This document shows, piece by piece, positions 3,521 to 6,079 of a DNA stretch of 49,732 bases. Each line of letters opens with the position of its first letter. The stretch's first letter is position 1. This stretch comes from an uncultured Oscillospiraceae bacterium (GTDB taxonomy: Bacteria; Bacillota; Clostridia; Oscillospirales; Oscillospiraceae): NCBI GenBank assembly GCA_947630785.1, contig CANRIW010000012.1, positions 1-49,732 of the forward strand, written 5' to 3'. The notes under the pieces were generated by a model. That model had not been told where the DNA came from. It was given only the letters and a program-made list of their open reading frames with translations, and did no database searches. Both the position numbers and the translations under genes were made by a program.

Positions 3521-3913
3521 TCAGCCGGTGATCTTGAACCCGCCCCTGTGGCCCTCCGCCCGGACGGTGATCACGGTCTTGCCGGATACCTCCACGTTGA
3601 AGGACGACGTCTGGATATCGCTCTCGGAGAAGATCACGTTTCCCGCCCCGTCCTCCATCTCCATGGAGAGGTCGCCGGACCGGGTCTCCACCTCTACGTG
3701 GAGGGCGTCCCCCTTCGGGTGGAGGGTGTGCCGCCCCCTGCCGGTGAGCATGGCGTAGCTGGCCGACCAGCTCTGCCGGCCGGCATGGCCCACATAGCCT
3801 ATTCGGACGGAGGACCGCCCGGTGCCAAAGACCACCGACACGATGATTACCGCGGCCACCAGGACCCCCGCCAGGATGAAGGCCAGGGGGCCTTTTGCTC
3901 GATACCGTTTCAT
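3521..3913 (-). CDS. Membrane-anchored protein of unknown function
   Basis: 130 residues. A short basic N-terminus precedes one hydrophobic segment (about residues 9-29). The rest is a soluble, beta-rich region of alternating polar and hydrophobic residues, probably facing outside. I do not recognise a named family. It is last in a leftward run merR-88-residue protein-ybjQ-this gene, 22 nt after ybjQ, and probably shares their operator-controlled promoter. The ribosome binding site (GGGGAT) is weak. Confidence 0.7.
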   Translation of the reverse strand: MKRYRAKGPLAFILAGVLVAAVIIVSVVFGTGRSSVRIGYVGHAGRQSWSASYAMLTGRGRHTLHPKGDALHVEVETRSGDLSMEMEDGAGNVIFSESDIQTSSFNVEVSGKTVITVRAEGHRGGFKITG

Positions 3914-3935
3914 GTCCGGTCACATCCCCACCGGG

Positions 3936-4253
3936 TCACTTGTACTTGACGGCGGTGCCGTAGGCCACCACCTCGGCGGCCCCCTGCATCACCGACGACG
4001 AACCGTACCGGATGTTCAGAATGGCGTCGGCCCCCAGGGCCTCGGCCTCGTCCACCATGCGTTTGGTGGCGATCTGCCGGGCCTCGGTGAGCATCTCGGT
4101 GTAGCCCACGATCTCGCCGCCCACCAGGGTCTTCATGCCCGCCATAAAGTCCTTGCCGAAGTGCTTGCACTGGACGATGGTGCCCTTCACCACGCCAAGG
4201 GCCTCGAACTCCTTATCGGAGCCCGGGATATAGTCAATATTGAGCAGCAGCAT
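3936..4253 (-). CDS. YbjQ/UPF0145 family protein
   Basis: 105 residues. Family features include the conserved region around VGGEIVGYTEML and the segment EALGADAILNIRYGSSSVMQG near the C-terminus. YbjQ proteins form pentameric beta-rich rings; their function is not known, although some databases call them heavy-metal-binding. ATG 4253 is chosen because AGGAGGAG lies 7 nt before it and the homologous region begins at MLLLNIDYIPG. The start overlaps the end of the 88-residue membrane gene by 20 nt, so the two are probably translationally coupled. Confidence 0.85.
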   Translation of the reverse strand: MLLLNIDYIPGSDKEFEALGVVKGTIVQCKHFGKDFMAGMKTLVGGEIVGYTEMLTEARQIATKRMVDEAEALGADAILNIRYGSSSVMQGAAEVVAYGTAVKYK

Positions 4254-4500
4254 CTGATTCTCCTCCTTCGATTTCTTTGAAACGCGCCCGCAGCACCCAC
4301 AGGGCGGGCAGGAACATGAGGACAAACCCGGCGGCGCATATCCCCAGAACGATCTGGGCCGCCAGGGGCATATCCGGGATGAAGCACAGGCCCGCCATCA
4401 CCGCCGCCGAGCCCAGCATGATCAGCCCGTAGAAGGTCACCCCCAGGGCGGCGGCCCGCTTCTTCCGGCGGTGGGCCGCCTCAATACTTTCTTGCCTCAT
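4234..4500 (-). CDS. Small two-TM membrane protein
   Basis: 88 residues. A basic N-terminal stretch (RRKKR) is followed by two hydrophobic helices (about 19-39 and 46-68) and a short charged tail. It has no recognisable family. A strong GGGGGAGG site precedes ATG 4500. It overlaps the end of the membrane-anchored MerR gene by 20 nt and the start of ybjQ by 20 nt, so it is the middle gene of a tightly coupled set and likely works with one of them. Confidence 0.75.
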   Translation of the reverse strand: MRQESIEAAHRRKKRAAALGVTFYGLIMLGSAAVMAGLCFIPDMPLAAQIVLGICAAGFVLMFLPALWVLRARFKEIEGGESDAAAQY

Positions 4501-5131
4501 CTTCCTCCCCCTTTCCGATCTCCCGGATGCGCTGGATCAGGGCGTACAGCACCCCCAGGATCACCACCACCGGCACGGCCCCGATGAAGATGGGCACCCA
4601 GACGGGCGGCGCGCCCTCCGGGAAGGTGGTCCAGGCCCACACCAGCACCCCGATGGGCGCCGCCATCATCGCCATGATCGCCAGGGCGATGACGGTGGGC
4701 GCCACATAGCGCCTGATCTTGTCGGTCTTTTTCACGTTCACAAACTTGGTCCCCTCCTGTTCTTTTTGGGCCATGCGCGCCAGCACCCCGTCGGCGTCCA
4801 GGGTGTCCAGCCGGGCGTGGTCCTCTTTCAGGGAGGCGCACAGGGCCGCCATCTCGTCCAGACTGGCCTTCCGCCGCTCCAGCTGGATCACATGCCGGTC
4901 CATGGCGTCCTCCAGGGTGAGCTCCCCGGATCTCAGCCGCTTGATCTCCTCGATGGGCACGTCCAGCATCCGCAGCAGCCGGATCTTCTTCAGCCACTCC
5001 ACGTCGGCCTCGCCGTAGTCCCGGTAGCCGTTGTCGCTGTTGCGGCCGGGGGTGAGCAGCCCCTCCTTTTCATAAAAACGGATGTTGCCCTTGGTGATGC
5101 CCGCCAGCCGCTCCACCTCGTTGATCTTCAC
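4481..5131 (-). CDS. MerR-family regulator with C-terminal membrane anchor
   Basis: 216 residues from a GTG at 5131, which has GGAGG 8 nt before it; the longer upstream frame has no such site. Residues 1-70 are a MerR winged helix (NEVERLAGITKGNIRFYEKEGLL, then NGYRDYGEADVEWL), followed by the long dimerisation helix (about 75-125). Instead of an effector domain there are two membrane helices (about 143-167 and 178-200). It therefore appears tethered to the inner face of the membrane. Its promoter carries a palindromic operator (5163-5187) identical to the one before the adjacent yhfC-type gene, which implies autoregulation and control of both units. Confidence 0.85.
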   Translation of the reverse strand: MKINEVERLAGITKGNIRFYEKEGLLTPGRNSDNGYRDYGEADVEWLKKIRLLRMLDVPIEEIKRLRSGELTLEDAMDRHVIQLERRKASLDEMAALCASLKEDHARLDTLDADGVLARMAQKEQEGTKFVNVKKTDKIRRYVAPTVIALAIMAMMAAPIGVLVWAWTTFPEGAPPVWVPIFIGAVPVVVILGVLYALIQRIREIGKGEEDEARKY

Positions 5132-5162
5132 GGCCCGCGCCTCCCTTCTGAACCCACGGTAC

Positions 5163-5187
5163 ACCTTCCACCAAGTGGAAGGTCAAG
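5163..5187 (-). promoter_or_regulatory. MerR-type operator/promoter before merR
   Basis: On the reverse strand, TTGACC (5186-5181) runs into the palindrome CTTCCACTTGGTGGAAG, with -10-like TGTACC or TACCGT beyond. This resembles the operators of MerR/CueR promoters, where the dyad fills the stretch between -35 and -10. It overlaps the stop codon of the upstream yhfC-type gene. An identical 25-bp copy lies at 5990-6014. Confidence 0.75.
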
Positions 5188-5932
5188 AGGTTTTTTGCGC
5201 TTTTTTCAAATTTTGATAGACGATCCCCGCCAGGCAGGCCGCCAGCACCGCAACGGCCGCCGTGGCCGCCTCCGCCGCCGCGATGCCCGCTTTGGCGTTC
5301 AGCGTCACCGCCAGGAAGTTGGCCCCCGTGTGGAGCAGCACGGCGGCGAGATACAGCCAGCCCTTCCCCGGCCGCCGCGCGGCGGCGAACACCAGCACGG
5401 AGTTGCTGACGTGGAGGGCCACCGCCAGCACCCGCTCCAGCGCCGTCCAGAGGAACGTCCACACCGGGACAGCCGCCACGGTCTCCGCCGCGGACAGCAC
5501 CGCCGGGTCGGTGACGGCGCCGCTCCCCGCCAGCAGCAGCACAAGCAGGTTGTTCAGCATGGCGGCGCCCACGACCAGCACCGCCTCGGCGCCGCCGTGG
5601 CCCGCGCCATAGGCCAGGGCCGTGGCGGGCGCCGTGTGTTTTTTCAGCAGGGACCGGAAGGCAATGAGCCGCCCCGTCTCCTCAAAGAGCCCCGCCGCCA
5701 GGCCGCCGTAGAGGCCGTAAAGCCAGATATTCCCCTGGATCGCCCCGCCCAGGGGGCCGCCCAGCACCAGAGCGTGGAGTATCTGCTCCAGCACCAATAC
5801 GGAGACAGCGAAGGTCCCCGCGCCCACCCAGAAGGCGGACCACCTTCCTCCCTTCCTGTGGTACCACAGCATCAGGCCCAGGGGCAGGGCCGGCGTCAAA
5901 AGTCCGGTGAACACGATGGCCGCGATCTGCAT
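5183..5932 (-). CDS. YhfC-type intramembrane glutamic protease family protein
   Basis: 249 residues and about seven membrane helices. The conserved motifs of the YhfC branch of CAAX/CPBP-like proteases are visible: EETGR at 84-88, GHGGAEA at 111-117, Glu166-Arg, His174, and HTGANF at 201-206. These supply the glutamate and histidine residues of the catalytic centre. ATG 5932 is preferred over GTG 5941 because GGGAG is 8 nt before the former and abuts the latter. It has its own copy of the operator used by the MerR gene immediately downstream. Its substrate is unknown; the membrane-tethered MerR protein is an obvious candidate (inference). Confidence 0.8.
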   Translation of the reverse strand: MQIAAIVFTGLLTPALPLGLMLWYHRKGGRWSAFWVGAGTFAVSVLVLEQILHALVLGGPLGGAIQGNIWLYGLYGGLAAGLFEETGRLIAFRSLLKKHTAPATALAYGAGHGGAEAVLVVGAAMLNNLLVLLLAGSGAVTDPAVLSAAETVAAVPVWTFLWTALERVLAVALHVSNSVLVFAAARRPGKGWLYLAAVLLHTGANFLAVTLNAKAGIAAAEAATAAVAVLAACLAGIVYQNLKKAQKTS

Positions 5933-5984
5933 CGCTCTCACTCCCTCTCCGTTTTTTGGGGCCGGGGCCCCCGTTCAACGTCAG

Positions 5985-6014
5985 CGTATACCTTCCACCA
6001 AGTGGAAGGTCAAG
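5985..6014 (-). promoter_or_regulatory. MerR-type operator/promoter before the YhfC-type gene
   Basis: On the reverse strand, TTGACC (6013-6008), the palindrome CTTCCACTTGGTGGAAG, then TATACG/TACGCT. The 25 bp at 5990-6014 are identical to 5163-5187. Upstream lies an A/T-rich stretch (about 6019-6055). Confidence 0.8.
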
Positions 6015-6079
6015 GGGTTTTTGAAAATTTCTCAAAAAAATTTTACGGGGCCGGGAAAAACGTCCCGGCCCCGCAGTCA

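Follow-up and report, generated by a model that had tools for sequence, protein, structure and literature searches.

The window, a stretch of 49,732 nucleotides from an uncultured Oscillospiraceae bacterium (assembly GCA_947630785.1, contig CANRIW010000012.1), contains a gene for a MerR regulator with two predicted transmembrane (TM) helices at its C-terminus, here called MerR-2TM, and directly upstream of it a gene of the YhfC family of intramembrane proteases. The core of this system conserved in related genomes consists of MerR-2TM, its operator, a YbjQ protein and usually a small membrane protein; the protease is outside the core. We consider it rather probable that MerR-2TM acts as a one-component MerR activator that senses within the membrane and controls an envelope-defence regulon. 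It is a MerR protein of variant architecture, and it remains in the MerR family because the helix-turn-helix (HTH) domain is family-defining.

The order MerR-2TM, zero to three small homologues of its anchor, YbjQ was observed in 63 related loci (62 distinct; L012 and L032 are one record present in both locus sets). Genes in the fetched loci were called with our own gene caller. Species genomes were scanned in a way that detects only close relatives, which gave 27 MerR-2TM loci, 25 of them matching over residues 1-216; YbjQ follows MerR-2TM in 26, and the exception is a contig end. Another 36 loci come from the window's family (34) and from the class sample (two). Here YbjQ follows in 35, the exception again being at a contig end, and an ABC (ATP-binding cassette) exporter comes after YbjQ in nine, in one case past a gap of about 480 bp. 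YhfC adjoins MerR only in the near relatives L004-L006 among the 27 scan loci, and precedes it in two of the 36 further loci (L035, L039). The features of the window are as follows.

6044..6075, minus strand: intrinsic-terminator-like stem, 3' of a GerMN gene and just before operator 1
5990..6014, minus strand: operator and promoter 1, of yhfC; TTGACC-19 bp dyad-TACGCT, exact 25-mer
5183..5932, minus strand: yhfC, 249 aa, predicted glutamic-type intramembrane protease of the YhfC family (PF10086, E 2e-40); motifs EETGR, GAGHGGAE and HTGAN read in this protein and also in relatives
5163..5187, minus strand: operator and promoter 2, of merR; exact 25-mer, covers the last codons of yhfC
4481..5131, minus strand: merR-2TM, 216 aa, predicted membrane-embedded MerR regulator (PF13411)
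4640..4696, minus strand: MerR helix 1, residues 146-164, hydropathy prediction
4535..4591, minus strand: MerR helix 2, residues 181-199, hydropathy prediction; about 16 residues separate both helices
4484..4531, minus strand: conserved C-terminal tail of MerR, RIREIGKGEEDEARKY, C-terminal Tyr conserved
4234..4500, minus strand: small 2TM companion, 88 aa, homologue of the MerR membrane anchor
3936..4253, minus strand: ybjQ (YbjQ/UPF0145), 105 aa (PF01906, E 4.1e-34; PDB relatives 1y2i, 1vr4, 2gtc)
3521..3913, minus strand: 130-aa protein with one predicted helix; last gene, optional

The unit appears free-standing, as a terminator-like stem precedes operator 1 and a separate promoter (TTGACA-18-TATAAT at 3488-3459) lies beyond the unit, ahead of the downstream mnmA. 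An earlier note on this DNA had proposed a self-contained membrane switch that also drives the three downstream genes. A switch driving its own operon is supported by the conserved regulator, operator and YbjQ and by the predicted envelope targets. The downstream set holds for YbjQ and usually for the small membrane protein. The 130-residue protein is confined to near relatives and not to all of them: it is present in L004, L007 and L008, and gave no tblastn match at 1e-3 in L005, L006 or the distant loci. Neither it nor the small membrane protein has a Pfam match above the cut-off.

MerR-2TM and its operator

The winged HTH of MerR-2TM occupies residues 1-68 (PF13411, E 7.9e-21, Pfam). CueR structures align to residues 1-101 of the MerR-2TM profile, covering the HTH and the dimerisation helix. 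Solved structures at E <= 1e-8 reach residues 1-129 at most, and most stop at about 105. No effector domain was found above the cut-off in Pfam or NCBIfam; two hydrophobic segments stand instead, and by Pfam there is no histidine kinase domain. Thus the earlier description of a MerR protein with two membrane helices in place of an effector domain agrees with Pfam, NCBIfam and hydropathy, the helices being predicted. Of the 200 family genomes sampled, 35 have full-length matches to MerR-2TM, two of these being split or cut at a contig end.

The claim of one identical 25-bp operator before each of the two genes was also borne out. The 25-mer has two copies in the window, both exact, with up to three mismatches allowed (0.00 expected from shuffles), and the 24-mer, again with up to three mismatches, occurs only in these two places in the 2.17-Mb genome. 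The design is that of a MerR-type promoter, as had been suggested: the -35 box TTGACC is followed 19 bp further by the -10 hexamer TAnnnT, and the dyad sits within the spacer. Our promoter scan accepts spacers of 16-18 bp only, hence both operators were unlisted. The final T of TAnnnT is beyond the search pattern. At MerR-2TM loci, 54 of 55 distinct sites have it (mostly merR promoters, with a few sites before yhfC or ybjQ), as do 41 of 49 distinct sites elsewhere (L160-L162 excluded).

Upstream of merR, the operator is the best match in 60 of 60 regions at five or fewer mismatches, in 53 of them at two or fewer. In the shuffled control, one of 1200 regions reached four mismatches and no other had five or fewer. 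Three loci with no usable merR start (L008, L059, L063) are excluded from this count. The 200 family genomes contain 72 operator sites versus one with the reversed pattern; 30 of the 72 precede merR-2TM and 42 lie elsewhere. Sites elsewhere were found in 24 of the 35 regulator-bearing genomes (23 once the window's own yhfC site is dropped) versus 8 of 165 genomes without the regulator. Among the latter, G517 (85% complete) and G537 (66% complete) are congeneric with MerR-2TM genomes, the site precedes another MerR gene in G035, G500 and G533, and the sites of G564 have another core. The window's genome has its two operators only and in this respect is self-contained, as had been claimed; its relatives, with operators elsewhere, are not.

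An extra perfect operator was observed in L009 (7499-7525) immediately before ybjQ, at a locus with three tandem 2TM companions. Two species that belong to the window's genus but have no MerR-2TM (L074, 4524-5408, minus strand, and L162) carry the operator, with 1-2 mismatches, before a gene for a different MerR of 294 residues with C-terminal hydrophobic stretches. Another MerR for which a membrane part is predicted is encoded in the window's own genome (L078 3891-5360, minus strand; G000:C8), a protein of 489 aa in which Pfam finds the HTH fused to an RDD domain and a large C-terminal part. Other long MerRs, several of those fetched, resemble it by eye.

Predicted regulon in relatives

Since the window's genome has only two operators, the wider regulon was predicted from relatives. 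Of the 42 family sites elsewhere, 36 were fetched; left out were the window's yhfC site, those of G035 and G500, and three of G564. A MacAB-like adaptor and ATPase lie behind 12 of these sites, with an FtsX permease in 11 (L139 is a contig end), and a TetR-like gene leads five of the 12 operons. An ABC ATPase of exporter type follows six sites; a partner of about 530 residues was found in five, and the sixth is at a contig end. SPFH/Band 7 genes follow five sites, in four of them behind NfeD. Beta-lactamase-like genes follow three and a cardiolipin-synthase-like gene follows one.

The set of 25 named genomes has 23 sites elsewhere, 17 of them fetched. The six excluded are three yhfC sites, the ybjQ site of L009 and two sites of G595, which share coordinates with G459 and were already included as L130 and L131. 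The 17 sites precede beta-lactamase-like genes (7), efflux genes of the resistance-nodulation-division (RND)/outer-membrane type (OEP; 5, one showing the first gene only), ABC exporters (3, all in Faecalibacterium) and MacAB-like genes (2). One example per target type was run against Pfam and the remainder were assigned by eye. The Pfam matches are HlyD, ABC_tran and MacB/FtsX in L142, two PLD domains in L131, NfeD and Band_7 in L141, beta-lactamase in L145, ABC_tran in L147, and OEP, HlyD and ACR_tran in L171. Thus most other operator targets in relatives are predicted envelope or export genes.

The target kinds overlap with those of the B. subtilis sigma-W/RsiW/PrsW system, whose targets include NfeD, YthPQ-like ABC and PbpE-like proteins; a further parallel is the nearby YhfC, of a PrsW-like protease family. 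Flotillins and the YknWXYZ transporter are listed among sigma-W targets in PMC8144471. That system employs an extracytoplasmic function (ECF) sigma factor and an anti-sigma factor, whereas here the regulator is a MerR protein and YhfC was not found in most regulator genomes. Indeed, no sigma or anti-sigma model of Pfam or NCBIfam was above the cut-off in the unit's five proteins. As in sigma-W systems, a predicted envelope-defence regulon under one promoter type is seen in the relatives, not in the window's own genome.

The membrane anchor, YbjQ and the mode of sensing

A profile of the MerR anchor matches 44 of 220 small proteins of the loci (plus L095 and L105) at 6.6e-21 to 5.9e-8, the best match of the reversed control being 0.011. 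The companion profile finds the MerR anchor in return (2.1e-15 in the window). Thus the small membrane protein is, judging by these profiles, a separate copy of MerR's own anchor. The companion profile also finds standalone anchors in 18 genomes without MerR-2TM; 14 were fetched, L095 and L105 were already included, and the two weakest (4.0e-5, 8.3e-5) were left out. YbjQ is next to the standalone anchor in all 14 fetched loci, several recognised by eye, and also in L095 and L105. In our reading, the 2TM-plus-YbjQ module probably came first, and MerR-2TM would be a MerR HTH fused onto the membrane subunit of this module.

The anchor and its companions have a common tail, RxxEIxxGEEDxxxxY, with Arg at -16 and GE at -9/-8. 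The C-terminal Tyr is present in 55 of 56 MerR-2TM rows and in 44 of 44 companions. The standalone set ends in Y or F in 16 of 16 cases, which is no independent evidence, as the selection pattern required Y or F; ten standalone anchors found by the gene caller do end in Y. The gene for the anchor overlaps the next gene by 20 nt in 54 of 63 pairs and by 14 nt in four. Gene overlap as the sole cause of tail conservation is rejected on account of the five of the 63 pairs that have no overlap and keep the tail.

In PMC4092069, YbjQ falls into one fold group with DUF1471 proteins and RcsF, an envelope sensor, and pentamers are reported for relatives. No pertinent report on YbjQ with MerR was found in the open-licence library searched. 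The YbjQ family would thereby gain a concrete partner in a 2TM protein whose C-terminal tail is strongly conserved.

In L095, L105, L230 and L233, which have no MerR-2TM, a gene of SPFH/Band 7 type (by Pfam for L095, by eye for the other three) was observed near the 2TM-tail and ybjQ genes, with yhfC in between at L095 and L105. In L235, genes for an ArsR-type regulator and an SdpI-like membrane protein (by eye) precede the 2TM-tail and ybjQ genes.

MerR-2TM has the same HTH, dimerisation helix and operator with a 19-bp spacer as the MerR activators CueR, CadR, BmrR/Mta and TipA, as well as apparent autoregulation; BmrR/Mta control efflux genes. However, these activators have a C-terminal ligand domain, and MerR-2TM has the predicted two-helix hairpin and the tail instead. 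In CadC, ToxR and TcpP, too, a single polypeptide carries both DNA-binding and membrane-spanning parts. CadC and ToxR have one membrane helix and an extracytoplasmic sensor domain; MerR-2TM differs from this group by its MerR domain, by two helices instead of one and by having no extracytoplasmic sensor domain. Nothing on membrane-bound or transmembrane MerR was found in the open-licence library searched. LiaS and BceS are intramembrane-sensing histidine kinases. For two others, SaeS and GraS, PMC4388633 describes two helices, a linker of <25 residues and no sensor domain, an arrangement that MerR-2TM shares in having two helices with about 16 residues between them by hydropathy. Its output differs, being a MerR DNA-binding domain in the same chain with no kinase or response regulator. 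We conclude that MerR-2TM probably works like an intramembrane-sensing kinase in one chain, acting on a CueR-type promoter.

The MerR dimer would sit on its operator while held in the membrane. The two-helix hairpin, either by itself or in combination with companion 2TM proteins, would register a bilayer disturbed by antimicrobial peptides, by lipophilic drugs or by a loss of order; YbjQ may dock on the shared GEEDxxxxY tail and tune the signal. The DNA-bound dimer would then untwist the 19-bp spacer, so that transcription would start without cutting. This suggests that gut Clostridia (Oscillospiraceae, Faecalibacterium and some Lachnospiraceae) have an envelope-stress sensor made of one protein, whose operator can be read in the sequence and whose predicted regulon comprises exporters and membrane genes.

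Several observations weigh against this reading. The helices of MerR-2TM were predicted by hydropathy alone, and docking of YbjQ on the tail is a guess drawn from co-occurrence. The 20-nt gene overlap may account for part of the tail conservation. The family is narrow: besides the window's genome, only two of 391 class-wide genomes have it in full length. As the genomes are related, the Fisher value for operator sites elsewhere in regulator-bearing genomes (4e-16) overstates independence, and the sites in the regulator-less G471 and G576 lack explanation. The window's genome itself has only two operators, both local. Nine of the 36 family sites head other targets, outside the envelope and export classes or MATE-like: two proteins of 93 residues, two membrane proteins of 235 residues, two MATE-like genes, whose operator has a different dyad core, and three singles (one hydrolase-like, one of 832 residues, one MerR). 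Finally, the 527-residue ABC partner in L147 has no Pfam or NCBIfam match, and the label 'permease' for the partner of about 530 residues comes from the hydropathy of its homologues.

YhfC and the rival explanations

The protease gene directly upstream of merR does belong to the YhfC intramembrane protease family (PF10086, 2e-40), as the earlier note stated, and its product has the conserved EExxR, GHGGxE and HxxxN/D motifs. YhfC was found in 48 of the 200 family genomes (47 above the cut-off) and in 7 of the 35 regulator-bearing genomes, adjacent to merR in three; in the other 28 it was not found (assemblies 64-100% complete). The pairing, in which yhfC lies at a distance of 24-54 bp before merR and each gene has one operator, is found in three lineages. 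In L004-L006 an operator of its own precedes yhfC, and in L035 and L039 the arrangement is as in the window, with the operator of yhfC at three mismatches and the merR operator at the end of yhfC. Thus the pairing is real; chance is rejected in view of the same position and own operators in three lineages. Conservation of the neighbourhood, proposed as a check, was found in part: MerR-2TM and its operator are kept and the YhfC pairing recurs, but in most MerR-2TM genomes no YhfC was found.

The YhfCs of the merR-adjacent arrangement form one clade (98/92 in a 59-row tree, which excludes uncalled proteins and those outside 200-330 residues, including L190 and L199). However, their MerRs sit in three places among yhfC-less relatives, which corresponds to three changes, at least two of them forced by starred branches. 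Thus yhfC appears, from these trees, to have been repeatedly lost or gained at one fixed spot. In the near relatives L007 and L027, the yhfC segment is absent exactly between both operators and merR is kept. Ahead of their single operator, L007 and L027 match the region upstream of the window's yhfC (0.83 and 0.79 vs 0.53); behind it they match the merR leader (0.85 vs 0.63 and 0.60). This layout is the product expected of recombination between the two operators. L007 groups with the yhfC-bearing L006 inside the window's clade in a tree without L027, and therefore loss is favoured in L007.

Among 40 further family YhfC loci that were fetched, YhfC was called in 37. In six of these, yhfC overlaps by 4 nt the gene of another kind of MerR, about 241 residues long; four of the six were scored and show one or two segments that exceed the hydropathy threshold, with a Cys-rich tail behind them. 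The meaningful BLASTP likeness of this MerR to MerR-2TM is limited to the HTH region (32% over 95 residues), and its promoters contain another dyad, TTGCGTAAGG...TTACGCA-like, in seven of seven read by eye. At the class level it adjoins YhfC in 3 of 30 fetched YhfC loci (the window included), all from one genus. Twelve of 382 class genomes encode it, beside YhfC in three, beside an ABC exporter in three and beside neither in six, two of which (G165, G282) have YhfC elsewhere. The YhfCs partnered with this second 2TM-MerR form one group in 0% of bootstrap trees, and the starred branches force no more than one origin.

The main rival is regulated intramembrane proteolysis, in which a PrsW-like YhfC would cut the MerR-2TM hairpin and either release the active regulator or shut it off; YhfC, itself an operator target, would give feedback. 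This is possible but doubtful. It is consistent with the position and own operators of yhfC in three lineages and with the single YhfC clade, and the overlapping yhfC of the second 2TM-MerR family keeps the cleavage idea alive. In Faecalibacterium, moreover, a gene for a CPBP protease overlaps ybjQ in seven of seven loci (PF02517 by Pfam for one). We take DUF2324 to be the old name of PF10086. DUF2324 is termed PrsW-like in PMC3482391. Precedents mentioned in PMC10202637 are PrsW, which cuts RsiW, and TcpP, whose activity at the membrane is ended by proteolysis. However, YhfC as an essential trigger is rejected in view of the 28 of 35 MerR-2TM genomes where it was not found. Together with adjacency in only 3 of 35 and with merR kept in L007 and L027, this disagrees with the earlier idea of YhfC cleavage as the general mechanism. 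The MerRs with YhfC (L006) and without it (L007) are alike, with identity 92.6% overall and 85.7% over residues 140-216, and beside both MerR families ABC exporter genes stand where YhfC does not, as for an interchangeable effector. A protease step cannot be general for MerR-2TM unless another protease acts. The repeated company of YhfC with membrane MerRs and YbjQ (YhfC is next to YbjQ without MerR-2TM in L095, L105 and L199) favours a functional link, not specific cleavage. Most likely YhfC is a regulon member, serving envelope defence or feedback on membrane proteins. Slightly less likely than the proteolysis rival is that two unrelated membrane-MerR lineages use YhfC as a dedicated partner to cut the anchor, with the anchor of the first coming from a separate, older 2TM-plus-YbjQ module for membrane stress, whose GEEDxxxxY tail YbjQ reads. 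If true, YhfC-cut membrane MerRs would be the MerR counterpart of the PrsW/RsiW/sigma-W circuit. The membrane MerRs are in any event candidate substrates for YhfC proteases. Nothing linking MerR to YhfC in an intramembrane context was found in the open-licence library searched.

One more possibility is a cytosolic metal or thiol sensor acting through Cys98 and the 'heavy-metal-binding' YbjQ, the hairpin being a mere tether. Cys98 is present in 52 of 56 MerR-2TM, the operator presumably resembles the copA/CueR type, and the best NCBIfam matches are CadR/PbrR and CueR, all inside residues 1-118 and far below the cut-offs. However, Cys98 is absent from four proteins, the anchor also occurs as separate proteins with the tail conserved, and no metal ATPase or chaperone gene was seen by eye among up to four genes downstream of the 36 and 17 sites. 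A metal regulon is rejected, as no metal-export targets were seen at the fetched operator sites, and the sensor as such we regard as improbable. Still less credible, indeed hardly so, is that YhfC is a passenger in a single lineage, whose insertion duplicated the operator as a side effect. It adjoins merR in no more than 3 of 35 MerR-2TM family genomes and is missing in near relatives, but three lineages, with YhfCs 40-52% identical to the window's, retain its place, strand and own operator; a caveat is that YhfC of any kind was found in just 48 of 200 family genomes. An anti-phage role was rejected, as the sole PADLOC result was a short match of the HTH to mad1.

The MerR of about 241 residues was observed coupled or adjacent to yhfC in nine loci (L096, L098, L099, L100, L102, L104, L184, L186, L190), with the conserved dyad upstream wherever MerR comes first. 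In L092, genes for an ArsR-type regulator and an SdpI-like membrane protein (by eye) are located directly before yhfC.

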